A stretch of 64,000 nt of DNA from assembly GCA_024227995.1 (NCBI GenBank), contig CP100465.1, positions 372,001-436,000 of the forward strand, given 5' to 3'. Positions 13,361 to 52,223 of the stretch are shown here, one piece after another. The notes below the pieces were generated by a model. It ran no database searches and was not told where the DNA came from. It saw only the letters and a list, made by a program, of their open reading frames with translations. Position 1 is the first letter of the stretch; each line of letters begins with the position of its first letter. The position numbers were made by a program, and so were the translations under genes. The stretch comes from Halomicrococcus gelatinilyticus. GTDB taxonomy: Archaea; Halobacteriota; Halobacteria; Halobacteriales; Haladaptataceae.

Positions 13361-13665
13361 CCGAGACCACCACACCTCGGTCGCGAGTCGTCGTCCGTCA
13401 GGTCGAACGGTCCCAGATAGCTTGCTACGATGGACGCGGGACGACGTCGACTGAAGGGTCTGGAGCCGGTTCTGCCGTGCTGTTGGACGACGAAGACGGG
13501 GCTGACCGCGGAGACTGCAGTCTAGCGGTAGATTCGACCGCTTGCGCCTGGTCTGTTATTCGTACTGTGGGAACCGATCCGGTATAACGGGTAGAGTGTT
13601 CGGAAAGCACTCCGTGGGCGGGGAGCAGAAACTGCCCCGAATCCGTGGCTAGCTGACGTCAGCAA

Positions 13666-13681
13666 GTCGGCCTCGGCACTC
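13666..13681. repeat. Candidate left attachment site of element 1
   Basis: GTCGGCCTCGGCACTC, repeated exactly at 31479-31494. It marks the switch from GC-rich core to lower-GC, GATC-free sequence. It is not within a recognisable tRNA. Confidence 0.6.
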
Positions 13682-13954
13682 GAACCAGTAATTATTACCG
13701 ACTAGCGAAACTATTTATAGAACAAAATCCGATTCGCGCCTAAATCGATAGACGGCGCGATGTATCATCGCGCGATGCGCCCTATGTTGTGGAATGCTCG
13801 ACGGCTGCCTACAACTGAACTCGCTACCCAAACGAAGTAAACCGATTTGCGCGCTTTTTGGACGAACACGCACTCGAACCAGTAACTATTACCGACTTAC
13901 GAAACTTTTTATAGAATATTGCTGAGACATACCTAAATCGGCAGCCAGCGCGAC
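13677..13954 (+). repeat. Two diverged direct repeats with promoter-like cores
   Basis: 13677-13760 and 13871-13954 align over about 84 bp (offset 194). Shared blocks are CACTCGAACCAGTAA, TATTACCGACT, CGAAACT-N-TTTATAGAA and CCTAAATCG. CGAAA followed by TTTATA fits a haloarchaeal BRE/TATA promoter pointing right. The ATTACCGACT block (13694-13703, 13888-13897) recurs inverted near the right end (31467-31476), so it may instead be an integrase arm site. Confidence 0.6.
13740..13859 (+). ncRNA. Candidate small RNA at left end of element 1
   Basis: Downstream of the promoter-like core at about 13704-13719 no protein is encoded. A perfect 8-bp hairpin with a 3-nt loop (GCGCGATG, TAT, CATCGCGC at 13755-13773) lies near the expected transcript start. 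A T5 run at 13855-13859 after GCGC could end transcription. This is an inference from promoter, hairpin and T-run only. Confidence 0.3.
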
Positions 13955-13998
13955 GATTCTTCCGAGATGGAGTATATATTTGAATACATCCGTATCGG

Positions 13999-14115
13999 TT
14001 ACGCGTGGAAACTCTCGTCACAGTTTCGGCAGGTAGCCCACTGACCTGCCTTCACTTTCTGCTTTTCACCGCATGCAGGGCATTCACGCCAAACTGAGCG
14101 ATTCCCGTAGGACAT
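13999..14115 (-). CDS. 38-residue CPxCG-type zinc finger protein
   Basis: A tiny gene: ATG at 14115, TAA at 13999-14001. The product has two zinc knuckles, ECPACGE and TCRNCDE (CxxC...CxxC) spaced by 15 residues, in a compact rubredoxin-like ribbon ending SFHA. Haloarchaea encode many such small CPxCG-related zinc fingers, several with phenotypes in swarming, biofilm or stress. It sits alone at the left end of element 1 and is easily missed by gene callers. Confidence 0.6.
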   Translation of the reverse strand: MSYGNRSVWRECPACGEKQKVKAGQWATCRNCDESFHA

Positions 14116-14242
14116 ACCCTTACTAACAGAATCCTATTGTAAATCTCTAACTCGTAATTCGAGCGTCCAATTGCCGGACTACTTTCACCTCGGTTAGATA
14201 GCCTTCTTGACAGTCGGTTACAAAGTATGGACCACACTCAGT

Positions 14243-14536
14243 ATGAGCGATATCATCTGTAAAGCGATTCAGGAGCAGAAGGTAATCGAATTCACCTACG
14301 ACGGCCATCATCGAAAGGTCGAACCCTACTGCCACGGCCGGAGCAAGAAGGGCAAGGAGTCGCTTCGAGGCTACCAAATTGCGGGAGGGAGTAACTCGCG
14401 GCGAGTCCCATTCTGGCGTCTCTTTACCGTAGCGAAGATGGGGAACCTGACGCTGACAGACGGGTCGTTCACTGGGGACCGGCCTCACTACAACCCGAAC
14501 GATAAGGACCTGTCTCCAATTCACTGTAACATCTGA
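14243..14536 (+). CDS. Small WYL-like protein
   Basis: A 97-residue protein from the ATG at 14243. The segment IICKAIQEQKVIEFTYDGHHRKVEPYCHGRSKKGKESLRGYQIAGGSN resembles a stand-alone WYL-type beta-barrel: 'I..AI...+.i.f.Y.g..R.vePy.....g...l.gyq'. WYL domains sense nucleic acid or nucleotide ligands and often regulate defence loci. It has no HTH of its own. The next gene starts two bases after its stop, so they form an operon. Confidence 0.55.
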   Translation: MSDIICKAIQEQKVIEFTYDGHHRKVEPYCHGRSKKGKESLRGYQIAGGSNSRRVPFWRLFTVAKMGNLTLTDGSFTGDRPHYNPNDKDLSPIHCNI

Positions 14537-14538
14537 CG

Positions 14539-14892
14539 ATGGACAAGGAACGTGCGAAAGAACTGATGCTCGAAGAACGAGAAGATGACGAGGGTTTCAA
14601 AGACTCGATTGTCGTCCTCGAAATGGACCTCATCGAGGAGGACGCGGGTATCATTCGGGGCGAGCTGATAATCGAAGGCGAGGTTGATACGACCGGGAGT
14701 CTCCTCGTACCGCTCAACGAGCCAAAGCCAGAGAATTGGCAAGACCTCGAAGTTGGGGAGACGAAAGCGTACGGCCTTCGGATTGATTCTCGAAAGGAGA
14801 CGGTGCGTGAGAAGATGGGTGCGTTCTTCAGTCGCAGTTTGGAAGAAGGGCGTGTACAAGACTTCGTTCCTGGAACACCTCCCGGAACGTAG
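14539..14892 (+). CDS. Acidic hypothetical protein
   Basis: A 117-residue protein that begins two nucleotides after the WYL-like gene's stop, so it is cotranscribed and probably coupled. It is Asp/Glu-rich with a predicted beta-rich centre (GIIRGELIIEGEVDTTGSLLVPL) and a C-terminal helix. I recognise no family. The role is inferred only from linkage with the WYL-like gene. Confidence 0.6.
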   Translation: MDKERAKELMLEEREDDEGFKDSIVVLEMDLIEEDAGIIRGELIIEGEVDTTGSLLVPLNEPKPENWQDLEVGETKAYGLRIDSRKETVREKMGAFFSRSLEEGRVQDFVPGTPPGT

Positions 14893-15056
14893 ATATTCTT
14901 TCAGACTTTCAAAAGGGCCATAATAGGGGTATAGCGGCGATTTGTGCTTGATTCTTGTTCTTCATTTCACTTTCACCTCGCCACCGTTATATTTTATATG
15001 AATGTCTACGTAGCATCACTTGTCTCCCATCGAAACACACCGGAGACTGAATACAA

Positions 15057-16082
15057 ATGGCCGCGACAAAGCTCATTCCGTACAAAGTACAGATTCATCC
15101 GAATGGGGAAGCCAGCAAGGACGACCTCTGGGACTTAACGGACCTCCAGCAATACGATACCACCGTACAGAGCCAACTTGGGGCATCTAGTGGGGCTCCT
15201 TCGGTCTCGGACGTCGAGACATTCAGCGACCTGTTTCAGTCGTTTTGCCAGTACTACGAAACGAACCTAGCTGACCTCGGAGAAGAAGTCGAGCGCCTCT
15301 CAAACGTAACTCTCGCGCTCAGTACCGATTGGGAGTCATCCGACCAGGTGGTCGAAGGAAATCTCTATCTCGGAAATTACGGAGTCGTACGGAACCTCGT
15401 TGACAGACAGAGCGGCGAAAGACGGGAACGGGGCCGAGATATCGATGACGCCGAAGAGAAGCCGCTCTACTTTATGACGTACACTCCCTCGGGGAACGCT
15501 ACGGAAGCGTACCTCCTCTTGGAACGTTCACGGCGTTACGGAGCGAAAGAGCCCTTCTATATCACTCTCCGTCGGTGGATTCGGGAGAACTACTCCGACG
15601 AAATCAACGTAAAGATAGACCCCGTCAGAACAGAGGACATCTTCCCGAAGATGCGAGAGGCTGATAGGACGGTTCGTCTCCGGTTAGAGAAAGATGGGTC
15701 TCCGGACCAGCTTCACTCTGACTTTGATTCGGTCTTCAACCAGGAAGAGATGAAGCAAGCAATCGAATTCCGACCAGAGGGGGGCGACGATATGAACCTC
15801 GTTGTCGACGAACTCGAAGCTTGGTACAACGATTCAGAGACGGCATTCGAGACGATTGACGGCGTCTCGTATAACAACGTCAAAATCACAATCGAGAAGA
15901 ACAACTCTGACGAGACAATCTCGCTCACAAAGGGCGAAGCGGAACTACGGAAAAACATTGACCTCAGCGATATAGCTGAGGAAGGAGATATTCCAGTTCT
16001 CTCGGAAATTTCCTCACGGGCTCATGGATTCCTCACAACGGTTACTGGAGGCAGAACTGGGACAAGCAGTTTGTTCCGGTAG
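15057..16082 (+). CDS. Hypothetical 341-residue cargo protein
   Basis: The ATG at 15057 follows an AT-rich TATA-like stretch (TATATTTTATATG) about 60 bp upstream, a likely own promoter. The protein is acidic and mixed alpha/beta, with a central segment GNYGVVRNLVDRQSGERRERGRD and then PLYFMTYTPSGNATEAYLLLERSRRYGAKEPF. The latter resembles the 'loyal reader' strand-helix seen in uncharacterised defence-island proteins, but I cannot name a family. It is followed on the same strand by the GIY-YIG-like and DUF262-HNH genes, so it may be a component or sensor of the same system. Confidence 0.6.
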   Translation: MAATKLIPYKVQIHPNGEASKDDLWDLTDLQQYDTTVQSQLGASSGAPSVSDVETFSDLFQSFCQYYETNLADLGEEVERLSNVTLALSTDWESSDQVVEGNLYLGNYGVVRNLVDRQSGERRERGRDIDDAEEKPLYFMTYTPSGNATEAYLLLERSRRYGAKEPFYITLRRWIRENYSDEINVKIDPVRTEDIFPKMREADRTVRLRLEKDGSPDQLHSDFDSVFNQEEMKQAIEFRPEGGDDMNLVVDELEAWYNDSETAFETIDGVSYNNVKITIEKNNSDETISLTKGEAELRKNIDLSDIAEEGDIPVLSEISSRAHGFLTTVTGGRTGTSSLFR

Positions 16083-16162
16083 TCTCTCATACTGGGAATA
16101 GATTTCTTTTTTACACCAAATGCTTTAGCGCCATTCTCAGACATACTAACAAGAGACTCAGA

Positions 16163-16873
16163 ATGACACGACGCGAGGATATTACCCGACTCTATGAACT
16201 CCTTGGCGAGTTAGAGCAAACAGTCGGCGGGAAACAGAAGCTCAAGGACTGTACCGGCTATATGGACTGGCCCGACCGAGGTGTCTACTTCTTTTTTGCA
16301 TCAGACGAACATCGCGACGCCGGCGACCAGCTTCGGATTACTCGCATCGGGACTCACGCTGTCTCCGAGGGAAGTAGTACCTCGCTCTGGGACCGACTCA
16401 GAACACATCGCGGAGCAAAGCGGGGAACCTACGAAGGCGGCGGGAACCACCGAGGCTCTGTCTTCCGGAAACGAGTCGGTGAGGCATTCGTTGAGCGTGC
16501 TTCCCTGAATGATGAGTATCCCCATTGGGGCGAGGGGTCAAGCGCAAAGCGGGAACGCCGACTTGATGAACTCGAGATGGAGCGGCGAGTAAGCGACTAT
16601 CTCCGGGACCTGCCGTTCCTCTGGCTCAACGTTGACGACGAACCAAGCGCCGAGAGTCAACGGGCCTACATCGAACGAAACACGATTGCACTCCTCAGTA
16701 ATTACCAGCGAGAGGCCGTTGACGCTCGCTCAGATGATTGGCTGGGCCATCATAGTCGGAGCAAGGAAATCCGCGAATCCGGACTGTGGAATGTGAACCA
16801 CGTCGATGAAGACTACGACCCTGATTTTCTCGACCTCCTCCGCGACCAGATAGAGGAAACGTCGCCAGTCTAA
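16163..16873 (+). CDS. GIY-YIG-like nuclease domain protein
   Basis: A 236-residue protein. The order GVYFFF (40-45), RIGTH (61-65), SLWDRLRTHRG (74-84) and GGNHRGSVFR (93-102) fits a divergent GIY-YIG nuclease: first strand with GVY, second strand with (R)IG, then a catalytic Arg on a helix. A family-typical later Glu could lie at E107 or E110. The C-terminal half is helical (ERNTIALLSNYQREAVD). Similar proteins occur in prokaryotic defence islands. It lies 80 bp after a hypothetical gene and 62 bp before the DUF262-HNH gene. Confidence 0.6.
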   Translation: MTRREDITRLYELLGELEQTVGGKQKLKDCTGYMDWPDRGVYFFFASDEHRDAGDQLRITRIGTHAVSEGSSTSLWDRLRTHRGAKRGTYEGGGNHRGSVFRKRVGEAFVERASLNDEYPHWGEGSSAKRERRLDELEMERRVSDYLRDLPFLWLNVDDEPSAESQRAYIERNTIALLSNYQREAVDARSDDWLGHHSRSKEIRESGLWNVNHVDEDYDPDFLDLLRDQIEETSPV

Positions 16874-16935
16874 GAATCGACCGCCATCGTAGCGACAGGA
16901 CACTATTATAATGGTAATGTCTGTACAGCAATAGT

Positions 16936-18324
16936 ATGGCAATCTACGTCGATGACCCTCTCAATTCGAACGACGAAGACTGGGACATCAGCAAGTTCCA
17001 CAGCGATAGCGAATACTTCGTTAAGCGGCCACCCTACCAGCGAAAGACCGTCTGGGATACCGGAAAGAAGAAGGAACTAATCGATAGCTTCGTTCGCCAA
17101 CTCTACGTCCCGCCTGTTGTAATCCGACAAGTTGTCCTCGACGGTAACGACCTCCGTCTCGAAGTCGTCGACGGCCAACAGCGAATTACCGCGATTCAAG
17201 AGTTCTTCGAGGACGAATTCGCACTCCCCGATAGCCCCGAACTCCGCGAACTCAACCCGGAACACGAGATTGCTGGGAAACGATACTCCGAACTTAGCGA
17301 GGACGTTCAGGAGTATATCGACTCTCAGTGTTCGCTCAAAGTCATCAAGCTGCGCGGTATCGACGACCCCGACGACAAGCGCCATCAGGAGTTAGCCACG
17401 AAGGTATTCTGGCGACTCCAGCAGGGCGAACACCTGACCAACATCGAGAAGAACCACAGTAAGACCTACAGCCCCGTTCGGAACTTCATCGTCCAGACAG
17501 CCGACGACATCAGCTTCGACCGAGAGAATTACGAGAGCCGCGACGACAATCCGAACCGCCACGAGTTCTTCACGCTTCTCGCTCGGAACAACGACCGACT
17601 CCAGCAACTCTCACTCCTCGCCCGCTTCATCCTGATTGAGATTGATGAAGGGCCGACGAAAGTCACCGGGAAGGAAGTTACCAAACTATTCGACTGCAAG
17701 CGAGAGGGATTCACCGTCCACGAGGACTTAGAAGAATTCAAACAACGCGACGAGATTCAGCGCGTTCAGCGGATGCTCGACCTCCTCACGGAACTCTACC
17801 GCGACACCGACCTCAAGAACGGGAACGGAGAGATAGAGTTCCTAAACAAGGAGTACTTCATCCTCAGCCTGTATTCGCTCATCCGCGAGTTGGAGTTTGG
17901 AGATTATAACTTCGGACGAGACAACTACGACGAGGTTCGGGACTTCACCGAGGAGTGGTTCAAGCGGTTCGAAGTTGAGGATACAGACGACAGCGAAATG
18001 CTCCAATTCAAGGAGGCTCGCCAGCAGAACCGAGGAGCAGTCAACAAGCGACACTACATCCTCGAAAACGCCTTCTGGGAGACAGAACCCGATATTCAAG
18101 AAACCGACAGTCAACGAGCATTCTCCCGAGCGCAGCGAATTAAGCTCTTCATCGAGAGTGACCGTATCTGCGAGATGTGCGTAGAGGAAGGGAAAACCGA
18201 AGAGGAGGCAAAAGTGTCGTGGAGCAATTGGGACGCCGACCACATCGAGGAACACTCACAGGGCGGCCAAACTGTTCTCGAAAACGCACGGGTACTCTGC
18301 CCCCATCATAATCGGAGCCGATAG
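16936..18324 (+). CDS. DUF262-HNH nuclease (GmrSD-like)
   Basis: A 462-residue protein. The N-terminal DUF262/ParB-like NTPase-nuclease domain shows PPYQRKTVWD (32-41) and the diagnostic DGQQR (79-83). The C-terminus is an HNH module: CEMC, DADHIEEHSQGG, then CPHHN. DUF262 proteins of the GmrSD/BrxU/SspE class hydrolyse nucleotides and cleave modified or unmodified phage DNA. Here both functions sit in one chain. It follows the GIY-YIG gene closely. I infer a type IV restriction-like defence role. Confidence 0.85.
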   Translation: MAIYVDDPLNSNDEDWDISKFHSDSEYFVKRPPYQRKTVWDTGKKKELIDSFVRQLYVPPVVIRQVVLDGNDLRLEVVDGQQRITAIQEFFEDEFALPDSPELRELNPEHEIAGKRYSELSEDVQEYIDSQCSLKVIKLRGIDDPDDKRHQELATKVFWRLQQGEHLTNIEKNHSKTYSPVRNFIVQTADDISFDRENYESRDDNPNRHEFFTLLARNNDRLQQLSLLARFILIEIDEGPTKVTGKEVTKLFDCKREGFTVHEDLEEFKQRDEIQRVQRMLDLLTELYRDTDLKNGNGEIEFLNKEYFILSLYSLIRELEFGDYNFGRDNYDEVRDFTEEWFKRFEVEDTDDSEMLQFKEARQQNRGAVNKRHYILENAFWETEPDIQETDSQRAFSRAQRIKLFIESDRICEMCVEEGKTEEEAKVSWSNWDADHIEEHSQGGQTVLENARVLCPHHNRSR

Positions 18325-18379
18325 CGTCCAGCAGTATCATTAATATCCTGACAGCCCTCCGATTAAATGGCGATTCTCG

Positions 18380-18583
18380 ATGACTGACGCACCATTAGCA
18401 CCGCGTCGACCGATGGACGACAACAAGGGATTAGGCGATGGAATGACCAGCGTAGATATCTACTGTCACCGCCAGCACAAAGGCCAATGGCAGCAAGAGG
18501 CCAACGAACAAGGAATCAGCCTGAGTCGCTATCTGGTCGAACTCGTTCAAGAAGCTCGCTGGGAGAGACATAACGACGACTGA
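18380..18583 (+). CDS. Small RHH-like protein
   Basis: A 67-residue protein. The C-terminal half WQQEANEQGISLSRYLVELVQEAR is a ribbon-helix-helix type segment, nearly the same as in the integrase partner at 19037 (WWEEAEHEGSSLSRYLYDLIQEAR). It probably binds DNA as a dimer and may autoregulate the preceding nuclease operon (55 bp gap) or compete with its paralogue. Confidence 0.65.
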   Translation: MTDAPLAPRRPMDDNKGLGDGMTSVDIYCHRQHKGQWQQEANEQGISLSRYLVELVQEARWERHNDD

Positions 18584-18771
18584 ACGCCGATATTCACCGT
18601 TTGAGACGGAGTCAGAGATGTTTCTGGTCCCATAGCGGTTGGAGGAGTGAGGGCCGCGTTCTTCAGTCGGATACCGATGTACGCAATGAGCGCCAGGATA
18701 ACCGGAAGCGCCACGCCGGTCGTTGCAAAGACGGTGCTGAGAAGTCCGGAAGTGATGATTTCCTTGCTCAT
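18547..18771 (-). CDS. Possible small membrane protein
   Basis: A 74-residue reading frame with a convincing hydrophobic segment (residues 8-35, LLSTVFATTGVALPVILALIAYIGIRL). Its last part runs antisense over the end of the RHH gene, so the C-terminus is doubtful. It may be a genuine small membrane protein of the element, but support is limited to hydrophobicity. Confidence 0.35.
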   Translation of the reverse strand: MSKEIITSGLLSTVFATTGVALPVILALIAYIGIRLKNAALTPPTAMGPETSLTPSQTVNIGVQSSLCLSQRAS

Positions 18772-18815
18772 TTGTCGGAGGATGTTGAGGGCGGTACTCT
18801 CCGAACCGCCGTTAT

Positions 18816-18840
18816 AGCCCTCAGCAGGACTTGAACCTGC
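18816..18840 (-). other. tRNA 3'-end fragment (T-arm plus acceptor strand)
   Basis: On the minus strand GCAGG-TTCAAGT-CCTGC is a perfect T-arm with a canonical loop, followed by TGAGGGC as a 3' acceptor strand. The matching 5' half is absent upstream. tRNA 3' ends are the normal attachment sequence of archaeal tyrosine integrases, and the integrase operon begins 200 bp away. It may be a relict att site. Confidence 0.4.
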
Positions 18841-19036
18841 AATACCAGGGTTCCCGCCTATTGTCCCCGACGCACCGTGCTTAGCGAGAGATTCGTTTTG
18901 TCCAAAATAAGTCTATCCCACTTCACGAGAGATTGTCATAGTCGAGATTGAACGAGGCGGTTTTCGGGACATAGACCGCGTTTCTACCGGTAATATCATT
19001 AACCTAACAAACTAATGACTATTCGGAGGTTCTAGT

Positions 19037-19546
19037 ATGACAGAGACATCTGTGGACAGCCCCAGCGACGAACGGGACTTCCAAACGCTCCACAAGAATA
19101 CGACCAGAGCCGAACTCTTCCCCGCCAAACAGCACAAAGAGGAATGGTGGGAAGAAGCCGAACACGAAGGGTCCAGCCTCAGCCGGTACCTCTACGACCT
19201 GATTCAGGAAGCCCGGATGTATCGGGACAGCGGCGCACCCTTCATCCAAACACAGGACCAGACAGTCAAGCAACTCCAAAACAAAATCGACGACCTCCAA
19301 ACGCAACTTGAAGAGGCTCGACAAGGCGGCGGTGGCCGAACCCACCTCAGTATCGATGACCTCGTCACTCGGGTACTAGACCAGCAGTACCAATCACTAG
19401 ACGAACTCATAGAGCGCGTCTCTGCTAGTGACGATGTCGCCCAACACCTCCAACGACAAATCGAGAACCGGCTGTACGCCTTAGCCGAGAACGGACAGGT
19501 TGAATTTCAACGTGGACACGGCTGGCGGCTCAAGGAGGGGAACTAA
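19037..19546 (+). CDS. Integrase-associated RHH / coiled-coil / wHTH protein
   Basis: A 169-residue protein. An RHH-like SLSRYLYDLIQEAR segment is at about residues 46-59, a coiled coil (TVKQLQNKIDDLQTQLEEARQ) follows at about 74-96, and a C-terminal wHTH-like region ends NRLYALAENGQVEFQRGHGWRLKEG. Its stop at 19546 is one base before the integrase ATG at 19548, so the two are coupled. This gene pair recurs in haloarchaeal integrated elements. It probably acts as an accessory or directionality factor or a repressor of the integrase. Confidence 0.7.
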   Translation: MTETSVDSPSDERDFQTLHKNTTRAELFPAKQHKEEWWEEAEHEGSSLSRYLYDLIQEARMYRDSGAPFIQTQDQTVKQLQNKIDDLQTQLEEARQGGGGRTHLSIDDLVTRVLDQQYQSLDELIERVSASDDVAQHLQRQIENRLYALAENGQVEFQRGHGWRLKEGN

Positions 19547-19547
19547 C

Positions 19548-20483
19548 ATGGGAGCCGAACCCGGTTCCTCGAAAGTCTACGACAACAAGCACGACGAAAT
19601 CAACTACTTCATTACTCGAAAGCACGCGACCGGCCGGAGCGAAAGAACGCTCAACTCGTACAGTCGCATCCTGCGTGAGTTCTTCCACGACCAATTCCCG
19701 GACCTCTCACCTAGCGAAGTCGAGATTCGCCACGTCGAGGACTATCTAATGGCGCTCACGGAACGCGGCGTCTCCCAGAACTCGAAAAAGAAGTACCTGG
19801 AAGTCCTCTCCAGCTTCTACGGCTATACGATGAAACGGCCGCAGTTCGAGGGAATCACCAGTAATCCCGCTGCGGTCGTGATGGAGGAAATTCCCCGGAT
19901 TCGCCCAGACCGGCCGGACTGCGCGACGTGGGAGAATGCCTGTAAACTCATCAACGCCATCCCAGACCCGAGAGACAAGACCGTCACCATCATCCTCGCA
20001 AAGACCGGTGCTCGACTGCTGGAAGTTCTCTCCATCGAAGAAGACGACGTCGACCTCGAGAAGGGATTCATTCGACTCCGAGAACGCAAGGGAGGTAAAC
20101 AGACTGTCGTCCCAATCGATGACGAGACCATCTACGCAATCAAACGCTATCAGTTTGTCAACGCCGATTTGGATTCGCCATATCTCTTCACAAGCAACAA
20201 AGGAGGACGGCTCTCGAAAGAGCGGATTCGACGGGAAGTGAAAGCCGCCGCCGACCGCGCCGGCGTCGCCCCTAAAGAAGAACGACGGTTCGAGAAGAAA
20301 TTCACACCTCACACCTTCCGCACCGTGTTCACTACGCTAATGCGGAAACAAGGAATGAAGCCGTACATTCTGAAATACATCCGTGGAGACGCTAAGACCG
20401 AGACGATGGATATCTACACTCGAGTCGACCGGGATGAGGCGAAAGAAGAGTACCTGAACTGTATCAAGGAAATTGGACTCTAA
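19548..20483 (+). CDS. Tyrosine recombinase / integrase of element 1
   Basis: A 311-residue XerC/D-like recombinase. The N-terminal SAM-like core-binding domain covers about residues 15-105. The catalytic domain shows Arg156 (TGARLLEVLS), the HTFR box with H255 and R258, and the nucleophile Tyr290 (MDIYTRVD). The usual second His/Trp position is unclear (YIRGDAKTE). The ATG at 19548 follows the upstream stop by one base. It should catalyse insertion and excision at the 16-bp core repeat or a tRNA site. Confidence 0.92.
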   Translation: MGAEPGSSKVYDNKHDEINYFITRKHATGRSERTLNSYSRILREFFHDQFPDLSPSEVEIRHVEDYLMALTERGVSQNSKKKYLEVLSSFYGYTMKRPQFEGITSNPAAVVMEEIPRIRPDRPDCATWENACKLINAIPDPRDKTVTIILAKTGARLLEVLSIEEDDVDLEKGFIRLRERKGGKQTVVPIDDETIYAIKRYQFVNADLDSPYLFTSNKGGRLSKERIRREVKAAADRAGVAPKEERRFEKKFTPHTFRTVFTTLMRKQGMKPYILKYIRGDAKTETMDIYTRVDRDEAKEEYLNCIKEIGL

Positions 20484-20811
20484 CGAGGATGGACAGTTGG
20501 TCGAAGTCATCATCTATCGAAACCCGTGGGAGGACCCTGAGGAGGTAGCTCGCGTTTCCATTGAGGGTGAGGTATCGGGCGGGACGCCGACCGCTGAATC
20601 TCTCCGAGACCGGATTCAGGACGAACGCGACCCCATAATCAGCGAGTACACGGATGGACGAGAACTGCTCCGGTATCTGGCTGCCTCGTACTCGAATGGG
20701 TATGTGATGGCAGGCTACGATAGCGAAGAATCTCGGCGGGTCGTCGAGGAGTTGAACGACGCCGCATACCTCGACTGGGTCGAAGAGTCAGGGCTCGACA
20801 CCTCGCTCTGA
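20473..20811 (+). CDS. Hypothetical protein overlapping integrase end
   Basis: A 112-residue acidic protein. It starts at TTG 20473, overlapping the last 11 bases of the integrase gene; an in-frame TTG at 20497 is an alternative. It is beta-strand followed by helices, with LVEVIIYRNPWEDPEEVARVSIEGEVSGGTP reading like a small alpha/beta module. No family recognised. Overlap implies coupled expression with the integrase. Confidence 0.55.
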   Translation: MDSNEDGQLVEVIIYRNPWEDPEEVARVSIEGEVSGGTPTAESLRDRIQDERDPIISEYTDGRELLRYLAASYSNGYVMAGYDSEESRRVVEELNDAAYLDWVEESGLDTSL

Positions 20812-20996
20812 ATCCCAAAGACTGTACGCTGGTGGTAGTCCCTTGACTGCTCACGTATTTCTGAGCGAACCGAATAGATTGACTCTTAATCGTCATCGAA
20901 CGGCTCTCTACTCCTGATAGGTAACACTCAGTCTGATGCTGGCTTTGACCTGGACGTCCTGATATTTTCTCTATCAATCGATAGGTGTCCCCTGGT

Positions 20997-44748: not shown

Positions 44749-45672
44749 CTACGAGAAGTCAGCTAACCCTTTCTGTATGCGACCACGCCGTTCGTCCTCA
44801 GGAACGTTCGTGGCGATAATCTCGTCTACTTTGTCGCGGTTCTCGGCGTCGCTGTTGATAGCTCTCGTCGCTCCCTCAATCTCCACCGAGAATCCAACGT
44901 TGTCATACATATCGTACATCACGCCGCTGTTACTGAGGATAACGTACACACCTTGCTCATCAAGTTCTTGTGCCACCTCAAGGAGTCGTTCTTGGTCCTC
45001 TTGTCCGAACCCCTCAGCGCTGTAATCAGTAAAGTATGCGGTCGAACTCATAGGTTCATACGGTGGGTCAAAGTAGACTAAGTCCCCTGGCTCTGCATAT
45101 TCAAGAATGTATTTGAAGTCGCGATTGAAGATTTCCGTGTTCTTCAGCACATCGCTCGCCTTTCGGATTCGTTGCTCCTGTACCCAATCTGGATTAGCAT
45201 ATCGGCCAATCGGGACGTTGAAGCCACCGCTACTATTCTGCCGATATAGGCCGTTGTAACACGTTCGGTTGAGGTACAGAAGTAATGCCGCTTCCTCTAT
45301 CGGGTCAAAGCTCTCGCCATATGGACGCTTATTGAACCTTGCTCTCTGCTGGTAGTAGTAGTTCTTAATCTCCTTTCCTTTATGATTGGTCTCCGCAAAG
45401 TCGTTCTCGGAGTCTGGGTCATCCTCAGGGTCTCGGTAGGATTCGAGCCGGTCAATCAGTTCCTCAGGATGGTCACGAACTTGTTCGTAAAAGTTGATGA
45501 GTCGGATGTTCGTATCGTTGATGGTCCCGTTCTCCGGTTCGAGGTCGAAGAATAATGCACCCCCGCCGAAGAACGGTTCGTGGAAGTGGTTGTAGTCTTC
45601 AGGGAATCTGGCGGATAGTTCGTCTAACAATTGTCTCTTGCCGCCTGCCCACTTCAGAACGGGGTTTACCAT
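44749..45672 (-). CDS. dam: Dam-type N6-adenine DNA methyltransferase
   Basis: A 307-residue D12-class alpha methyltransferase. Motif X/I VLKWAGGKRQLL (5-16) and FHEPFFGGGALFF (30-42) are followed by NRTCYNGLYRQN (135-146) and motif IV DPPY (202-205). This set is characteristic of Dam/M.DpnII enzymes that methylate adenine in GATC. The DpnII-family endonuclease encoded 310 bp away supports GATC specificity. The element itself has no GATC, so the target to protect must be the host chromosome. Confidence 0.92.
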   Translation of the reverse strand: MVNPVLKWAGGKRQLLDELSARFPEDYNHFHEPFFGGGALFFDLEPENGTINDTNIRLINFYEQVRDHPEELIDRLESYRDPEDDPDSENDFAETNHKGKEIKNYYYQQRARFNKRPYGESFDPIEEAALLLYLNRTCYNGLYRQNSSGGFNVPIGRYANPDWVQEQRIRKASDVLKNTEIFNRDFKYILEYAEPGDLVYFDPPYEPMSSTAYFTDYSAEGFGQEDQERLLEVAQELDEQGVYVILSNSGVMYDMYDNVGFSVEIEGATRAINSDAENRDKVDEIIATNVPEDERRGRIQKGLADFS

Positions 45673-45777
45673 TACCTTGGTGTTGTCCCGTCATGCTGTA
45701 TAAAGCCACCGTTCAATGAATCTTGAATGGCAGTCATTTCGGACACTATTAGGTGAAGAAGCCTCCATCTGGCGAAC

Positions 45778-45999
45778 GTGGCCCCACAACGGGACGAAGA
45801 GTCCGGTGAGTTCACCGACCAATACCCCCGCCAGAAGTTCATAGAGGCGGTCGAGGAGTTGGAGATAGCGACAACGCCGAAGGTCGCGGAGTACGTGGGT
45901 TGTTCATACGATTTAGCCTATCGAAGACTCCACGAATTTGACGAGGAAGGCGCAGTCACTAAAACAGATGCAGGCGGGGTTTTTATTTGGTCGCAGTAG
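45778..45999 (+). CDS. Small wHTH protein in R-M locus
   Basis: A 73-residue protein from GTG 45778. The whole chain is a winged helix: FIEAVEELEIATTPKVAEYVGCSYDLAYRRLHEFDEEGAVTKTDAGGVFIW. It lies between the methylase and endonuclease genes on the opposite strand, its 3' end overlapping the endonuclease 3' end by 17 bp. The position suits a controller of restriction gene timing, though it is not a classical C-protein. Confidence 0.72.
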   Translation: MAPQRDEESGEFTDQYPRQKFIEAVEELEIATTPKVAEYVGCSYDLAYRRLHEFDEEGAVTKTDAGGVFIWSQ

Positions 46000-46909
46000 A
46001 TTGCGACAGGTCCTCGAAGTGGGTCAGCACATAGTCGCCGAGTTGCTCCTCAACTTGGTGGAGATTATACACGTCAGTTATGTCATTGTAGCTCTCTCGA
46101 AGTACGTTCGTGAGGGACTTCCCCCATCCCTGGCCATCCGTAATCCAGACGAACTCTACGCCGTCGTTTCTCATCCGGCGCGATACGTGATTATACGACC
46201 GACGAATTTCAGATGGCTTACTCCCACCGCCTTTGTAGCAATTGGCTTCGAAGACGATACGGAGTTGTCCGTTCTCGAAGAGAGCAAAGTCCACCGTCTT
46301 CTTTTGTCCTGACTCATCATTGTACTCGGTCGTGTACTCGGCTTCGATGGAGACGTTGTATCCTTCCTGCTGGAGTTGGTCAGTAATCCCTTCCAGTTTT
46401 TCTCCGACGATGTTCTCGAAGCACGTCCCCTGACGGTTCTTTCGCGAATGTGTCTCCATACCAACGAGCATCCCTCGGTAGTGGTCTCGAATGTCTGCAG
46501 ACTCGTCTACCACATACTGGAGGCCGATTTTCTGAAGTTCTTCGGCCAGCTCCCGTGCTTCCTTTCGGTCGCCGTTATCAATGGCGCGCTGTACGTCGTA
46601 GAACTTCCAGAGACCTTCGAGAGCAGTATACTTGTTGCCACGTTCCCCAAGAATCTCGAAGTAGAAGTTTATCCACTTCCGGGTATCGTCGGCATCCATC
46701 AAGGCGTCTGTAAGCCCCTTGATGAACACCTGTTTGGATACATTTTGAAGCTCCGCAATGGCCTCAATTTGTTCTTCGTAGTTCTCAATTTGGTCTTCGA
46801 TGTCGTCCCAATTGATGAACTCCGAGGAAGGGATGGCAGATGGGATGATAGTGTCTTGGAACTCCTCGACGAAGTCTTTAGTTGGAGGCTGATGTTGCCG
46901 AAGCACCAT
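45983..46909 (-). CDS. DpnII-family type II restriction endonuclease
   Basis: A 308-residue protein matching R.DpnII/LlaDCHI-type GATC endonucleases: RQGTCFENIVGEKL (159-172), TVDFAL (205-210, catalytic Asp207), RIVFEANCYKGGGSK (217-231, Glu221), SYNHVSRRM and FVWITDGQGWGKSL (253-266). Expected to cut unmethylated GATC. The matching Dam methylase lies upstream with a small HTH gene between. ATG 46909 gives the full N-terminal helical domain. Confidence 0.88.
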   Translation of the reverse strand: MVLRQHQPPTKDFVEEFQDTIIPSAIPSSEFINWDDIEDQIENYEEQIEAIAELQNVSKQVFIKGLTDALMDADDTRKWINFYFEILGERGNKYTALEGLWKFYDVQRAIDNGDRKEARELAEELQKIGLQYVVDESADIRDHYRGMLVGMETHSRKNRQGTCFENIVGEKLEGITDQLQQEGYNVSIEAEYTTEYNDESGQKKTVDFALFENGQLRIVFEANCYKGGGSKPSEIRRSYNHVSRRMRNDGVEFVWITDGQGWGKSLTNVLRESYNDITDVYNLHQVEEQLGDYVLTHFEDLSQSTATK

Positions 46910-47138
46910 ATCCCGGTGAAAGGAAATCCAACAGATGACTTACGGCTAAATCTTGGTTGAACGGTGAATACTGCACCATATGCGTGCAAGATTCGGAGAG
47001 TTGAAATATAGTTTAGAGGAGTGAATCAATTGGGTGAGTTCGGACAGTATAAAACCTCTTCGGCAAGAAATCAGTCGGGTAGGGCTTAAGCGTTGTCGAG
47101 AGGACTTATCTACATGATTGAATTGAATAAGAACCGCG

Positions 47139-47747
47139 ATGTACGACTCAAATCGATGCATCATATGCGGTGGAGCTAAAGAAGCAAACCACCACGTGAA
47201 TGGTGACGACGAAGACAATGCGGCAAAGAACGTAATCCCCGTCTGTACGTCATGCCACAACAAGATTCACTACGGTACGACGATGCAGACACTACCGTGG
47301 TTCGCTAAACTTCCTGAATCTGCGCGAAGACGGACACTCCCTACGGTTGGAGTAGAACGGTTAGAAGGCCAGTACAAGAACGCGTTCTTGATGGACAAAT
47401 GGATGGAAGATGCCTACCAAGCAACGCAGAGCGCCTTAGCAGAGGCAGAATCCTACTTGACAGGGAGACATTATCATATTAGCGGTATTGACGTGACTCA
47501 CTCCTTTGTCCGCAAGTTCAGGTCCAAGATGGTGGTTCACTCCAAGGGCAATGTGTACGAACACCGGACAACTCCTATCGTGTTAGAGAAAAAGGGGCCA
47601 AAGTGTGTCCTCCGATTGCCCGAGCTCGATAAGCACGCAGGTGGAACGACGCGCTCGCGGAAGGCCTACGAAACGTTCCTCACGGAGCTCAACAAACGCC
47701 AAGGACTACGTGGACACGGAGGGGAGGTTACGGGATACGAACCGTAG
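47139..47747 (+). CDS. HNH-like zinc nuclease domain protein
   Basis: A 202-residue protein. The N-terminus is a compact HNH module: CIICGG (7-12), NHHVNGDDEDN and VCTSCHNKIHYG, containing the CxxC pairs and the central His residues. A helical middle and a beta-rich C-terminus follow (KFRSKMVVHSKGNVYEHRTTPIVL). It lacks kin among the neighbouring genes. It may be an effector nuclease or a homing-like factor of the element. Confidence 0.7.
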   Translation: MYDSNRCIICGGAKEANHHVNGDDEDNAAKNVIPVCTSCHNKIHYGTTMQTLPWFAKLPESARRRTLPTVGVERLEGQYKNAFLMDKWMEDAYQATQSALAEAESYLTGRHYHISGIDVTHSFVRKFRSKMVVHSKGNVYEHRTTPIVLEKKGPKCVLRLPELDKHAGGTTRSRKAYETFLTELNKRQGLRGHGGEVTGYEP

Positions 47748-47760
47748 GGGCATTGACCTT

Positions 47761-47838
47761 TGGCGGAGTAGGCCGCACTCACCTTCGCCGAGAGGTCACT
47801 GCCAGGAGGAGACCGCAAGCATACACACTGCCGCCGCC
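47761..47838. repeat. Repeat copy B
   Basis: Diverged copy of 43340-43417. Identical blocks TGGCGGAGT and CTCACCTTCGCCG are followed by AAGCA(A/T)ACACAC and a GCC-rich end. The two copies flank the nuclease/R-M gene block of element 2. Confidence 0.6.
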
Positions 47839-48678
47839 AACAATCTAACAGTATAACAGTACGGTGCGGCTATTGAGAGCACATCGTGGCTGGGGAACGT
47901 AGTTTGCCGTAGCCAATGCTACGTAATCACTTTCAGTCACGACGCAAGTTTCGACGCTTGTCGAAAGAAGGGCCTCCGTGATATTCGTTAACCCGCACCG
48001 AACCTCCGAAGAAACCCTTTCTTTTGGGGGTACTACGTACCCCTTTTCTTTGGGGAATAATGCTTTCAAGAGTACCGCATCATGCTTCATGTTCAAACAG
48101 CAGTCATGCTGTGCTGTAGCGGTCTGCTGTGCTGTTGAGATGTAGCGGCAGTGTGTTTAATGCGGTTATCTTGAACAGAGGTAGGGATGTTGTTCTATCT
48201 GAAGCGATGACGTTTACTTGTCGGTAGACACAGCATCGGCCTTTACTGGTGTAACAGCAGTCCTACTCTTGGTGTAACCAACAGCAGGCCCCCACCTTCA
48301 GGAAGGGATAAGAAGCGGCGTGAGGACGCTTATAGCGGCACACAGAGACTTACAGAAGGCATGGTACGACTCGTCACAAACAACCAGTTCCTTTAAGAGA
48401 GCCACAGCGCCGCGTGAGCGAGTTCTTTTTGTGCAGAAGTCCTATCCCTCTCGCCACTACATGAAATCGTTCATGACGGAATCTCGCACGTCTCACGAGC
48501 TTCTGACATAGCACCACAACCCTTGAGGACCACTTAGGTGAAACCAACGATGCATAGGACCGGACTCAACTGCTTGAGATTCCAGTTGTTGGCACATTGG
48601 CTCGTGGAAGTTACCCATAGGACCCTGGCGTAACTAGCCCTAGTTACGTCAAATGTCGAAAAGCTTGTTGGCAGATTT
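47839..48678. other. Long non-coding region with short repeats
   Basis: About 840 bp without a credible gene. It contains the palindrome GGGGTAC-TAC-GTACCCC (48027-48043) flanked by CTTT/TTTC tracts, two TGCTGTGCTGT units (48107-48117, 48125-48135) and AACAGCAGTC at 48096-48105 and 48253-48262 with a partial third near 48280. The layout could be a replication origin or a control region. Confidence 0.4.
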
Positions 48679-48921
48679 GTGCCATTACCAACCTACGAGA
48701 TAAGAGAACATGCTACCTACGAAGATGATGGAGAATCATTGCTTCGGAGACGGACCGCTGTTCAATACCATGGCGACTCATCTGTTGCCACACAGCCGGT
48801 CCACTTACATCGAGTCGGTCGGCAAACTTGGGGATGGACATTCCTGCCCGGTGATACAGATAGTACAGTACTTGTGCATCTCGACGGGGTGCATCTAGTG
48901 TGTCTATTTTCGACCGAATAG
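48679..48921 (+). CDS. Possible small hypothetical protein
   Basis: An 80-residue frame from GTG 48679. It is acidic-leaning with beta-rich pattern (TWGWTFLPGDTDSTVLVHLDGVHLVCLF). An alternative frame overlaps and no family is evident; support is modest. Confidence 0.35.
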   Translation: MPLPTYEIREHATYEDDGESLLRRRTAVQYHGDSSVATQPVHLHRVGRQTWGWTFLPGDTDSTVLVHLDGVHLVCLFSTE

Positions 48922-49015
48922 TGTGCGCTTCAGGGGAATCGAAACGGGGTTCTGGGTTTCGTTGAGTTTCATAAGTATGATTTTGAGATGGAAGTGACGC
49001 GGTGGCGGCGTGTGT

Positions 49016-49420
49016 TTACGTCGGTGGGTGTGGCATGGACTCCTCGTCTTGGTCGAGGAAGTGGCTGATGCACAACCGTAGATACTCCGCGAAGGGAGTA
49101 TTCCCCGCAAGTGCGAACTGACAGTTCGGGTCTTCTGCGATTGGTGTCGACCGAAACTGCTCATACAAACTCTCGTACTGCTCCGGTGGAAACTCGACAG
49201 TCACTGTATCTGTGTATCGAACGGAAGGAGTCGATTGCTCATAGTCGGAGACATCTACTTCAGGGCTATCACCGAGTGACTGCCGGATATATTCCCCAAG
49301 TGGATGATTGGCTCCATAAGTGTCTCTGGTTCCCACCAGCTCGGATTCAACGAAGTTCTCAGAAAGCCGTTCAGACACCTCACTGGTGAAGTAGATGACT
49401 GTTCTTCTTCCTTCGCTCAT
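49016..49420 (-). CDS. Hypothetical protein coupled to CopG-like gene
   Basis: A 134-residue protein. Two related halves both contain a strand and 'F-x-E-Y-(I/L)-R-x(2)-(L/I)' helix (PLGEYIRQSL and PFAEYLRLCI), suggesting an internal duplication of an RHH-like unit. Its ATG overlaps the stop of the upstream CopG-like gene by four bases (ATGA). The pair looks like a small regulatory or toxin-antitoxin-like operon, but no toxin fold is recognised. Confidence 0.6.
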   Translation of the reverse strand: MSEGRRTVIYFTSEVSERLSENFVESELVGTRDTYGANHPLGEYIRQSLGDSPEVDVSDYEQSTPSVRYTDTVTVEFPPEQYESLYEQFRSTPIAEDPNCQFALAGNTPFAEYLRLCISHFLDQDEESMPHPPT

Positions 49421-49590
49421 TCGTTGCCCTCCTGCTTCTGCTCTTGTTCAATAGCCTCCTCTGCCATCTGCTGAATCACATCGGACCACCGGATTGAGGT
49501 GGTGCCATAGCGTCTTTCAGAAGCCTCTACGAGTCTCTTGTGTGCCTCTTCAGTGAGACGAATGTGCTTTATAAGTTCACCTTCTGCCAT
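49417..49590 (-). CDS. CopG-like ribbon-helix-helix protein
   Basis: A 57-residue protein from ATG 49590: a short strand (ELIKHIRL), helix A (EEAHKRLVEASERRY), a turn and helix B (SDVIQQMAEEAIEQEQ). This is the RHH dimer fold. The Gly-Thr-Thr-Ser-Ile-Arg-Trp-Ser segment corresponds to the inter-helix turn. It probably represses its own operon. Confidence 0.72.
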   Translation of the reverse strand: MAEGELIKHIRLTEEAHKRLVEASERRYGTTSIRWSDVIQQMAEEAIEQEQKQEGNE

Positions 49591-50008
49591 ATTTGGAATG
49601 TACCTCTTCGGGATGACGGTATAGGCCGCCATCCTGTCGAAAAAAATAGGGCCGTCTTCCCGGCCCATCGTCATCATAGACCGACGTCAAAGAGTTTCTT
49701 GAGGAGCGGGCACTCCTATTTAAGAAGCATTGGGAATGGACTCTCGATGAAGACTCGGCCCGTCTCCGCTCCCCGTATAGAAATTGGTACGAAGAGTCCC
49801 CACTTAAATGGCACATGGGTGACAAGCAGTTGCCACATTTTCGTGAGAGCACCCCCAGAACAGGCCGAGAAGAGCCAAACCCTTCAGAAGCAATCCAATC
49901 CCGTGGAGGCCAATGTAACCGGCAGACAGCGCACTGAACTTATCCGAGCAAACCTTGACTTTCCGGGAGGGACCAGGAGCGCCGTGTGTTAATCACCTTC
50001 CGTCAGCG
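49591..50008. other. Gap between CopG-like operon and integrase
   Basis: About 420 bp. Only unconvincing frames are present on either strand; the region probably carries the promoter of the CopG-like operon. Confidence 0.4.
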
Positions 50009-51169
50009 CTACCCCATTCGATTGAGCGCGTCTCGTCGGTCCTCGACAGGCACTTGGTCGTACTTCATCGTCGTCTGGGGGTTCTTATGGCGAAGCTGTG
50101 CCTTAGTTGCCGCCAAGTCCCTCTCTTTCGTCATGTAGGTTCCGACCGAGTGACGGATTGTGTACCACGACATTTTACGGTTCGCGGTTTCGATGTCAGC
50201 TTGGTCGCAGAGACGATGCAGGAGTCGTCTGAGACTGCTTGAGCTGTGTGGGTTACCATGGCTTGTCAACCATAGCGAATGGGTATCCTCATACCTCTCG
50301 TACTGCTCACGTTCCTCTAACCAGCGGGATAATGCGGTTGCTGTTCGGTCCGTGAGACTTACTGTCCAGTTCCCTTCGTTCTTGCTGGATTCGTCTTTAG
50401 GGATGCGGAGAACACCGTTTTTCGTATCCACCCACGCAGTCCGCGCATTACGCACTTCGTTAGGTCGGAGGCCAGCGTCAAGACTGGACCAAACGAGGGA
50501 TGTAATCTCCCAACCATTCACTTCATCCCAGTCGTCGCGCGTTACCTCGTCGTAGTTCTTGTTGAGGGCATTCGAGATGTACAGCTTCCAGCCTTCCCTC
50601 TCGTTGGCTGTGAGAGTATCATAGGCAGGAATGTTTCCCTCGTTGAGTGCGGCTTGACGAATTTCGCGGCGTTCTTCTCGGGTGAGAAAATCCTGTGGTT
50701 GATGATTGCCACCAGAGCCGTCAAAGGAGTATTCAAACTCCCATTCGTCGCGTCCCTGCGTGTGTTGAAGCCACTTCGAGAAGTGCTGAAGTCCTTCTTG
50801 GGCCTTCCCCTTGACCGTCTGGCTTTTGTCTGAGAAAGCCAAGTGGTCCATGTACGCCGCTCCATCGTCAGCGTCAGGCGGATACTTGTACCCACCCTTC
50901 TGTTCCCATAGCCACAAGTCGAACCTCGCTGTTCGGTAGGCTGTCGAGTAAACGGTGTACGGCGAGTACCCTTCAGCCTTGTCAGGGTTCTTGCCAACTT
51001 TCAACAGCCATGACAAGAACCGGACTCGGTGGTCTCTATAGTCCACCAATTGCTTGTCGTTCAGTACTTCGTCATGCGATTTCGGGACCACTTTGATGGC
51101 CCGTTCGCTGTCCACCTCCACATTGGTGGAAATGGCACAGCGTGAGAGAGTGATGGGTAGTTCTGTCAT
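50009..51169 (-). CDS. Tyrosine integrase of element 2
   Basis: A 386-residue haloarchaeal integrase. A SAM-like core-binding domain lies at about residues 35-145. The catalytic domain has DAGLRPNEVRNAR (first Arg), WYTIRHSVGTYM (Arg-His box), LRHKNPQTTMKYDQV (second His and Tyr). Its ATG is 62 bp from the tRNA-Leu 3' end, the usual position for an archaeal element integrated in a tRNA gene. A longer frame running upstream through the tRNA is spurious. Confidence 0.93.
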   Translation of the reverse strand: MTELPITLSRCAISTNVEVDSERAIKVVPKSHDEVLNDKQLVDYRDHRVRFLSWLLKVGKNPDKAEGYSPYTVYSTAYRTARFDLWLWEQKGGYKYPPDADDGAAYMDHLAFSDKSQTVKGKAQEGLQHFSKWLQHTQGRDEWEFEYSFDGSGGNHQPQDFLTREERREIRQAALNEGNIPAYDTLTANEREGWKLYISNALNKNYDEVTRDDWDEVNGWEITSLVWSSLDAGLRPNEVRNARTAWVDTKNGVLRIPKDESSKNEGNWTVSLTDRTATALSRWLEEREQYERYEDTHSLWLTSHGNPHSSSSLRRLLHRLCDQADIETANRKMSWYTIRHSVGTYMTKERDLAATKAQLRHKNPQTTMKYDQVPVEDRRDALNRMG

Positions 51170-51230
51170 CTTCCGTCTCCTGCCGATACGGAACTCGGGC
51201 AAGAGAGGCCCTCTCGTGCAAGGTATGAAG

Positions 51231-51315
51231 TGCGCGGGACCGGATTCGAACCGGCGGACTCCTACGAGACAGCGTCCTAAGCGCTGCGCCGTTGGCCTGG
51301 CTTGGCTACCCGCGC
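51231..51315 (-). tRNA. tRNA-Leu (anticodon UAG), also attR
   Basis: 85 nt including discriminator A. Acceptor stem GCGCGGG/CCCGCGC is perfect; the anticodon stem CAGCG/CGCTG encloses CTTAGGA with TAG; the long variable arm is class II; the T-arm is CCGG-TTCGAAT-CCGG. The 3' 54 bp (51231-51284) repeat at 40262-40315, so integration restored the gene. Confidence 0.96.
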
Positions 51316-51397
51316 TCGTCCCTTCTTTCCCAACTCGCCACAAAGAACCTGTCGTTCTGTACGAGGGCTTTTGTAGGATGACGGCCAAGCCCTCGTC

Positions 51398-51718
51398 GTG
51401 TATCGCGCACGCGACCAGGTGGAGAACGAGGAGTGGCTGGCGCGCCTCCAGCAGACGGCCGACCGCCTCGACCTCGACGCGGCGGCACGGTCGCGCGCGG
51501 CCGACCTGTTCCTCTCGACCGTCGCGGAGAGCGGGGAGGCGGAGGACCGCTCGAAGCGCGCGGTAGCGGCCGCGAGCCTCTACGCGGGGTCGCTCATCGA
51601 GGGCGACCAGCGGTCCCAGCAGGCGGTCGCCGACGCCGCGGGGGTCGCGCGGCTCACCATCCAGCAGCGGTGGAAGACCATCCTCGAAGAAGCAGGGCTG
51701 GAACCGCCGTCGTGGTAG
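51398..51718 (+). CDS. TFB-like cyclin-repeat protein
   Basis: A 106-residue protein from GTG 51398. One cyclin-like repeat with KRAVAAASLYAGSLIEGDQRSQQAVADAAGVARLTIQQRWKTILEEAGL is the second-repeat HTH signature of TFB. There is no zinc ribbon and no first repeat. Stand-alone TFB-like proteins of this size are common in haloarchaea and may modulate transcription initiation. Confidence 0.85.
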   Translation: MYRARDQVENEEWLARLQQTADRLDLDAAARSRAADLFLSTVAESGEAEDRSKRAVAAASLYAGSLIEGDQRSQQAVADAAGVARLTIQQRWKTILEEAGLEPPSW

Positions 51719-51728
51719 CTGCTCGGCG

Positions 51729-52223
51729 CTACTCGGTGCGCTGGGGTCGGCGGCCGTCGCGCTCCGGCGTGAGGTTGCCGTGCTCGTCGATCTCGCCCTC
51801 GACGATGCGGGTGCTGGAGATGATGTCGCCGTCCTCGGCCTCGACGTGGCCGACGACGACGATCTCGAGCGGGTCGAAGCCGCGCTCCTCGCGGATGTCG
51901 TTGATGCGCTTGCCGCCGTCCTTCGTCTCCGGCGAGACGATGAGCGCGTCGAACTGCTGCTCGGTGGCGATGCCCGTCGGTTCGTCGAGGCGTCGCACCT
52001 CGAACTCGCGGTCGTACTCCTCCGCGATGGACCGGAGCTCGTCTTCGAGGTCTGCTTTGCGCTCGTCGTAGGGGCGGACGTACCGGTCCACGTGTCGCGT
52101 CTTCGGTGCAAGTTCGTCGCTCGTCAATCCGACCGTCACGTCGCCCAGTTCGAACGCCCGCTCGAACAGCGCTCGATGGCCGTCGTGAACCGGGTCGAAC
52201 GTTCCGCCCAGCGCCACGTCCAT
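51729..52223 (-). CDS. coaD: Phosphopantetheine adenylyltransferase
   Basis: A 164-residue nucleotidyltransferase. ALGGTFDPVHDGHRALFERAF carries the HxGH motif (HDGH), VGLTSDELAPK follows and ISSTRI supplies the second motif. Catalyses 4'-phosphopantetheine plus ATP to dephospho-CoA. Archaeal type. The ATG at 52223 gives the canonical start MDVALGGTFDPVH. Confidence 0.93.
   Translation of the reverse strand: MDVALGGTFDPVHDGHRALFERAFELGDVTVGLTSDELAPKTRHVDRYVRPYDERKADLEDELRSIAEEYDREFEVRRLDEPTGIATEQQFDALIVSPETKDGGKRINDIREERGFDPLEIVVVGHVEAEDGDIISSTRIVEGEIDEHGNLTPERDGRRPQRTE

Follow-up and report, generated by a model that had tools for sequence, protein, structure and literature searches.

Two integrated islands in the chromosome of Halomicrococcus gelatinilyticus were found to contain no GATC. 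The DNA analysed is a 64,000-nt window (CP100465.1, 372,001-436,000), and all positions below are window coordinates. Both islands, here termed element 1 and element 2, are integrase-borne and carry defence genes; GATC was probably lost from them to GATC-directed enzymes in earlier hosts, and element 2 carries such a predicted pair, a methylase and an endonuclease. The missing word and the candidate enzyme pair share one mobile island, and another GATC-free island is its neighbour in a GATC-bearing chromosome.

Absence of the word GATC from both islands

The window contains 101 GATC sites, all of which were enumerated. The two longest gaps run from 13576 to 31639 (18,063 bp) and from 39290 to 51789 (12,499 bp), the third-longest being 1,849 bp. 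No site lies in 13580-31638 or in 39294-51788, as an earlier note on this DNA had claimed. The same note counted at least fifteen sites in the core block between the runs; 18 are present there, and three of the positions it quoted are off by 2. The islands, their attachment (att) repeats and the intervening core are as follows.

13666..31494, no strand: element 1, integrated island; GC 0.50 with a shift at each end; 0 GATC, 96 expected
13666..13681, plus strand: likely left att repeat of element 1, 16 bp, with an exact copy at 31479-31494
31479..31494, plus strand: likely right att repeat of element 1, 16 bp, exact copy of 13666-13681
31639..39290, no strand: core chromosome between the islands, internal control; 18 GATC sites in 7.65 kb
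40258..51284, no strand: element 2, integrated island at tRNA-Leu; GC 0.50, 0 GATC
40258..40315, plus strand: attL of element 2, 58 bp, 98% to attR, tRNA-Leu 3' part
51227..51284, plus strand: attR of element 2, 58 bp, overlapping the tRNA-Leu(TAG) gene at 51230-51315

Under a second-order Markov model, 96.2 sites are expected in element 1 (13666-31494) and 39.7 in element 2 (40262-51284), and none was observed in either, while the core of the window holds 98 against 161.9 expected (ratio 0.61). GATC is the sole 4-mer absent from either element, the next lowest being CATG in element 1 (0.25) and CTAG in element 2 (0.38). The depletion is not shared by words with the same trinucleotide content: element 1 has raised ratios for AATC/GATT (1.3), CATC/GATG (1.72) and GATA (1.35), and element 2 for AATC/GATT (1.47) and CATC/GATG (1.31). 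Furthermore, synonymous codons were permuted with the proteins and the codon usage of every gene held fixed. This shuffle gave 63.3 +- 6.1 expected sites for 12 open reading frames (ORFs) of element 1 and 25.5 +- 4.1 for 10 ORFs of element 2, with 0 observed in both sets, and 62.7 +- 5.8 for nine long core ORFs (ORFs, not vetted as genes), where 50 were observed. The avoidance is visible codon by codon in element 1, in which Asp before C is encoded by GAC in 78/78 cases and elsewhere by GAT in 141/302, and Ile after G is never encoded by ATC (0/66) but elsewhere is so in 122/207. Since GATC is absent despite fixed proteins and fixed codon usage, the avoidance targets the DNA word, neither the protein nor the codon usage.

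The host background was sampled in 20 stretches of 20 kb, in total 400 kb of a 3.72-Mb genome (completeness 99.95, contamination 5.04). These contain 979 GATC sites at a mean spacing of 409 bp, with a longest gap inside a stretch of 3,839 bp; the pooled observed-to-expected ratio is 0.54 (range 0.33-0.73), so that the host chromosome, as sampled, is only mildly GATC-depleted. The loss ends near the element borders and the adjoining core retains sites. The nearest GATC lies 90 bp outside the left and 145 bp outside the right repeat of element 1, and 968 bp and 505 bp outside those of element 2, which agrees with the earlier observation that the runs end just outside the att repeats. GC content is 0.50 in both elements against about 0.67 in the core, and it shifts at both ends of element 1. 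The further suggestion that GATC-free runs map element borders holds here; as some haloarchaeal chromosomes are GATC-poor over long stretches, the signal marks borders only in hosts that keep GATC.

The predicted restriction-modification pair and its relatives

Two adjoining genes of element 2 are predicted to encode a DpnII-type GATC restriction-modification (R-M) system, its specificity being likewise a prediction.

44749..45672, minus strand: Dam/DpnM-type adenine methyltransferase, predicted GATC methylase; PF02086 1.3e-62
45983..46909, minus strand: DpnII-family restriction endonuclease, with unmethylated GATC as its predicted target; PF04556 2e-44

DpnII types, by family, act on unmethylated GATC. 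The methylase scores 273 bits with the dam profile TIGR00571 (cut-off 114.85), and its best solved relative is DpnM (2dpm). When its alignment with EcoDam is read by eye against the residue list of PMC10073500, with EcoDam numbers counted along the printed row, it retains the GATC contacts K9, Y119, L122, R124 and P134 and the phosphate contacts R95, N126, N132 and R137. The endonuclease scores 152.4 bits with PF04556 against a cut-off of 23; no PDB entry is related to it by sequence at E 1, and its predicted fold resembles that of restriction enzymes, with their core fold recognisable in the model. Among plasmid records it has 17 matches (one haloarchaeal, 64%), and among phage records one, over half the length of the endonuclease. 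PF04556 and the D12 methylase family PF02086 have one match each in the host genome, both in element 2.

Comparisons were made with 391 genomes of the class, the host's own included, and 11 of them contain PF04556. A genome-contig search returned four loci, including those of Haloarchaeobius (G214), Haloferax larsenii (G113) and Halorussus amylolyticus (G147), and a viral-contig search returned one; three viral-contig searches with other proteins gave no relative. Long GATC-free runs occur at or near the DpnII-family gene in five of the ten other genomes, although the runs of Halorussus amylolyticus and Haloferax larsenii omit part of the cassette. Because several haloarchaeal chromosomes are themselves GATC-poor, only comparisons with GATC-keeping hosts count. 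Two loci of this kind carry the R-M genes inside a GATC-free run: in Haloarchaeobius sp. FL176 the run spans 12.8 kb (0/41 expected; flank 12/36), and in Halospeciosus flavus at least 11.2 kb (0/50 expected; flank 20/40). Halorussus amylolyticus, Haloarcula brevis and Haloarcula marina were dropped as evidence of island-specific purge, since their own genomes are GATC-poor (pooled controls 9/263, 51/275 and 60/299 observed/expected); around the cassettes of the two Haloarcula, GATC stands at 0/48 and 0/33 expected.

A second series of relatives was reached through a protein of element 1.

21798..24203, plus strand: 801-aa protein, likely replication protein; P-loop motif read by eye, C-terminal winged helix

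Kin of this protein occur in 133 of the 391 genomes (own included) and in 16 plasmid records, with no match in the phage collection. Among their loci, genome G036 has an 11.5-kb GATC-free run (0/50 expected; flank 95/99) and G083 one of at least 13.1 kb (0/57 expected; flank 26/45), each covering a tRNA-Arg gene. A third genome, G290, has a run of 6.4 kb (0/32; flank 52/88) that is truncated where the stretch ends and leaves out the 801-aa kin gene. No PF04556 or PF02086 match was found in the G036 genome and no DNA methylase among seven scanned proteins of its run; the G083 genome has no PF04556 match and two PF02086 matches. In total, four further GATC-free blocks of at least 11 kb were found in GATC-keeping hosts, namely those of Haloarchaeobius, Halospeciosus flavus, G036 and G083.

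Other palindromes are missing from such blocks as well. GATC is absent from all seven because the blocks were chosen for its absence; the other missing words were not selection criteria, and look like records of different restriction exposures. The Halospeciosus block lacks CTAG (0/16 expected), CATG (0/29) and AGCT (0/26); the Haloarchaeobius block CTAG (0/24), with AGCT at 5/35; and the G036 block CTAG (0/21), with CATG at 3/35. In an IMG/VR contig block AGCT stands at 0/25 and CTAG at 2/14, and in the G083 block CATG at 2/40 and CTAG at 8/25. In element 1, CATG is avoided too (10/40). As a control, 10-kb windows of the examined stretches with at least 15 expected sites were counted: those without the word number 0/169 for CATG, 0/169 for AGCT, 2/27 for CTAG and 9/177 for GATC. 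By stretch, L056 (9653-20894), L054 (2540-15313), L092 (790-12331) and L058 are GATC-free, and each lacks a different further set of palindromes.

Origin of the GATC loss

Several haloarchaeal systems directed at GATC have been described, and they target the site in opposing modification states. Mrr acts on methylated GATC (PMC7230728, PMC6471742), HHPV4I on Gm6ATC (PMC10101028), and the DndCDEA-PbeABCD system involves phosphorothioate at GATC (PMC6459918). An island moving among haloarchaeal cells may therefore meet enzymes for unmethylated (DpnII), methylated (Mrr, HHPV4I) and phosphorothioate-linked GATC; no single methylation state would protect it from every one of these enzymes, so that dropping the word would be the one defence effective everywhere. 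The purge would have preceded integration at this site, because the flanking core is unpurged, and selection on the islands need not have occurred in the present host, with its sampled ratio of 0.54. Having no GATC target to offer, element 1 could enter or persist in a cell that holds the enzyme of element 2. The inference in the earlier note of long selection by a GATC-cutting or methyl-dependent enzyme is thus supported by word-level avoidance, by the border limits and by the R-M genes of element 2.

GATC and CTAG are reported absent or near-absent in haloarchaeal viruses (PH1, SH1, HHIV-2, the HF1 group, His2 and BJ1), which is explained in the same sources as escape from host restriction (PMC3622292, PMC7230728, PMC2194725). 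As halovirus avoidance of GATC is already published, the pattern is not new in kind. Like those viruses, both islands lack GATC; unlike them, they are integrated, carry defence and integrase genes with no virion gene in the scans, and keep CTAG, and element 2 encodes a predicted GATC-type R-M system. The PF04556 endonuclease adjoining a D12-class Dam/DpnM-type methylase resembles DpnII/MboI-type R-M, with the difference that element 2 is an 11-kb tRNA-Leu island without its own predicted targets. According to Shaw et al. 2023 (PMC10359461), mobile DNA and plasmids avoid Type II targets, more so with broad host range, and plasmids follow one of two contrasted strategies, sequence tuning or protective genes; compared with the plasmids treated there, element 2 shows both strategies for one word. 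Rusinov et al. 2015 (PMC4687349) take site avoidance to record a prolonged exposure to an orthodox Type II system. By that argument, purged islands and a resident R-M system in a chromosome that is merely mildly depleted, without strong site loss, suggest recent arrival of the R-M genes. No earlier report of a GATC-free R-M island was recognised in the literature searched; what is new is a tuned sequence together with R-M genes for one word in an integrated island, with element 1 as a second case on the same replicon. The cause is made testable by these features, with one methylase, one endonuclease and plasmids of counted GATC sites. Searching for an absent word can also delineate certain mobile elements, and becomes misleading where a haloarchaeal genome has long GATC-poor stretches.

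Several results weigh against the proposed loss of GATC to enzymes of earlier hosts. The double avoidance of GATC and CTAG reported for haloviruses was found in neither element: CTAG stands at 31/43 observed/expected in element 1, which thus keeps it, at 9/23 in element 2 and at 6/27 in the window core, neither element being below the core. A GATC-free run of at least 6 kb was found in just 3 of 20 fetched loci of 801-aa kin (G036, G083 and G290), and the nearest relative of that protein (63% identity) lies in GATC-normal DNA with 162 sites (ratio 0.98); hence the protein family is not consistently tied to the purge. Among eight cassettes with an endonuclease of at least 70% identity, the one described here included, six lack GATC in the sequence examined, which for one of the six is the endonuclease gene alone. 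The other two hold sites, 13 in 2.6 kb in Halorussus amylolyticus and six in Haloferax larsenii, even though their controls are GATC-poor (9/263, and 12/74 in one stretch), and all three distant cassettes (59-64% identity) hold GATC as well. Accordingly, such a cassette does not inherently lack its own word, exemption from the island's own enzyme does not hold generally, and the purge is a property of the carrier element.

The remaining points concern the composition of haloarchaeal chromosomes. The GATC ratio is at most 0.25 in 5 of 16 usable control stretches of one set and in 9 of 18 of another, several of which share a genome, and ranges from 0.33 to 1.05 in the rest. Halorussus amylolyticus, of the host's family, gives control ratios of 0.00-0.06, and a 20-kb control stretch on its R-M contig (L130) has no GATC against 78 expected. 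A GATC-free island is therefore informative only against its own host, and a GATC-poor donor replicon could account for part of the signal. Ratios of 0.00-0.16 were observed in stretches L115, L117, L126, L130-L134, L136, L145 and L146, and of about 1 in some others; the stretches among L115-L146 with long-range depletion belong to Halorussus amylolyticus, Haloarcula brevis, Haloarcula marina, G110 and G238. Published accounts give low GATC frequency for Haloferax chromosomes (PMC5867850) and, in a survey, overrepresentation of GATC in most haloarchaeal genomes (PMC6471742). The count of CGATCG per genome ranges from 4 to 23,767. By this count the genomes with R-M genes rank lowest of 8 in Halorussus, two lowest of 24 in Haloarcula, lowest of 15 in Haloferax and highest of 6 in Haloarchaeobius. 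The association of R-M with chromosome-wide depletion has a permutation p of 0.012, from a post hoc choice and based on CGATCG, not GATC, and is a lead only.

It is distinctly improbable that the islands simply come from lineages in which the whole replicon is GATC-poor, with no selection on a mobile element. The depleted control stretches, and above all the 0/78 of Halorussus amylolyticus, would fit such an origin, but most depleted stretches retain some sites, one stretch each of Haloarcula marina and H. brevis stands at 0.42, and the GC of the depleted stretches, 0.58-0.72, differs from the 0.50 of the islands. Moreover, G036 has a GATC-free element in a GATC-normal host, and a poor donor merely shifts the question to the cause of the replicon's poverty. 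An alternative that seems unlikely, though not far-fetched, is that element 2 was purged by its own enzyme, with the endonuclease acting before or outlasting the methylase, and element 1 by co-residence. The location of the host's sole DpnII and D12 matches in element 2 agrees with it, as do the six clean cassettes among eight; the sites kept in Halorussus amylolyticus, Haloferax larsenii and the distant cassettes do not, and in G036, where neither family is matched, an element is just as clean. Speculatively, and with little likelihood, element 2 may act as a self-exempt restriction island, whose endonuclease could fire on arrival or after excision with the chromosome as hostage and its own DNA uncuttable, while companions such as element 1 ride along; the cassettes that hold GATC weaken this stricter form of self-exemption.

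A mutational process without selection, such as deamination of a methylated base in GATC, is very improbable. It would explain the raised AATC/GATT, to which a transition at the final C leads; it would not explain the raised CATC/GATG, a transversion product, or the raised GATA of element 1, and purely mutational loss in this host would not end near the att borders. Chance, or a by-product of codon usage or AT content, can practically be dismissed: the islands are indeed AT-richer than the core, but no site was observed against 96.2 and 39.7 (Markov) or 63.3 and 25.5 (codon shuffle), by which chance, composition and codon usage were rejected, and a 12.5-kb gap has a probability of about 1e-13 at 409-bp mean spacing.

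Gene content and attachment sites of the islands

Both elements have the make-up of tyrosine-integrase genomic islands, that is, an integrase gene and flanking direct repeats, of 16 bp in element 1 and 58 bp in element 2. No virion protein was found among 20 proteins compared with Pfam and 10 compared with PHROGs, a subset of the ORFs of both elements. The other assigned genes are the following.

16163..16873, plus strand: candidate defence protein of element 1, PADLOC PDC-M57B, 1.8e-77
16936..18324, plus strand: GmrSD N-terminal domain and HNH nuclease domain, predicted defence nuclease, by profile matches
19500..20483, plus strand: tyrosine integrase of element 1, PF00589 2.5e-24 and PHROGs scan
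27971..30223, plus strand: N6-adenine methyltransferase of type I / MAD2 kind, by profile matches
30229..31278, minus strand: HNH endonuclease-domain protein, PF01844 3.2e-07
40560..41504, minus strand: DprA-like ShosA homologue in element 2, 6.4e-62
41488..42219, minus strand: phosphoribosyltransferase, ShosT / PsyrT-like, PsyrT 1.5e-14, ShosT 4.7e-07
42334..43002, minus strand: tyrosine integrase/recombinase of element 2, PF00589 4.9e-24
50009..51100, minus strand: second tyrosine integrase, at the attR end, PF00589 1.2e-17; start coordinate provisional

The adjacent genes at 40560-42219 match the ShosA and ShosT profiles, the second scoring higher as PsyrT, and the pair resembles the ShosTA defence system. 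No Dam-type methylase was found in element 1. Two sizeable ORFs, 15057-16082 in element 1 and 43648-44748 in element 2, have no Pfam match at E 0.01.

The 16-bp repeat of element 1 is the sole 16-mer common to 13400-14000 and 31200-31750. Inside the left end of that element, overlapping the att-like sequence, a 47-nt repeat (91%) was observed at 13676-13722 and 13870-13916. For the element 2 site, 19 of 20 genomes (own included) gave a match, and tRNA-Leu(TAG) adjoins the homologous right flank in all seven loci fetched from relatives; on the left, the 1.5 kb compared gave matches only to short tRNA-fragment repeats. Directly left of element 2, at 40051-40260, lie two exact 105-bp tandem copies, each with about 23 nt of the tRNA-Leu 3' end, which are perhaps scars of repeated integration. 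Some relatives have ladders of tRNA-Leu 3' fragments beside the same tRNA.

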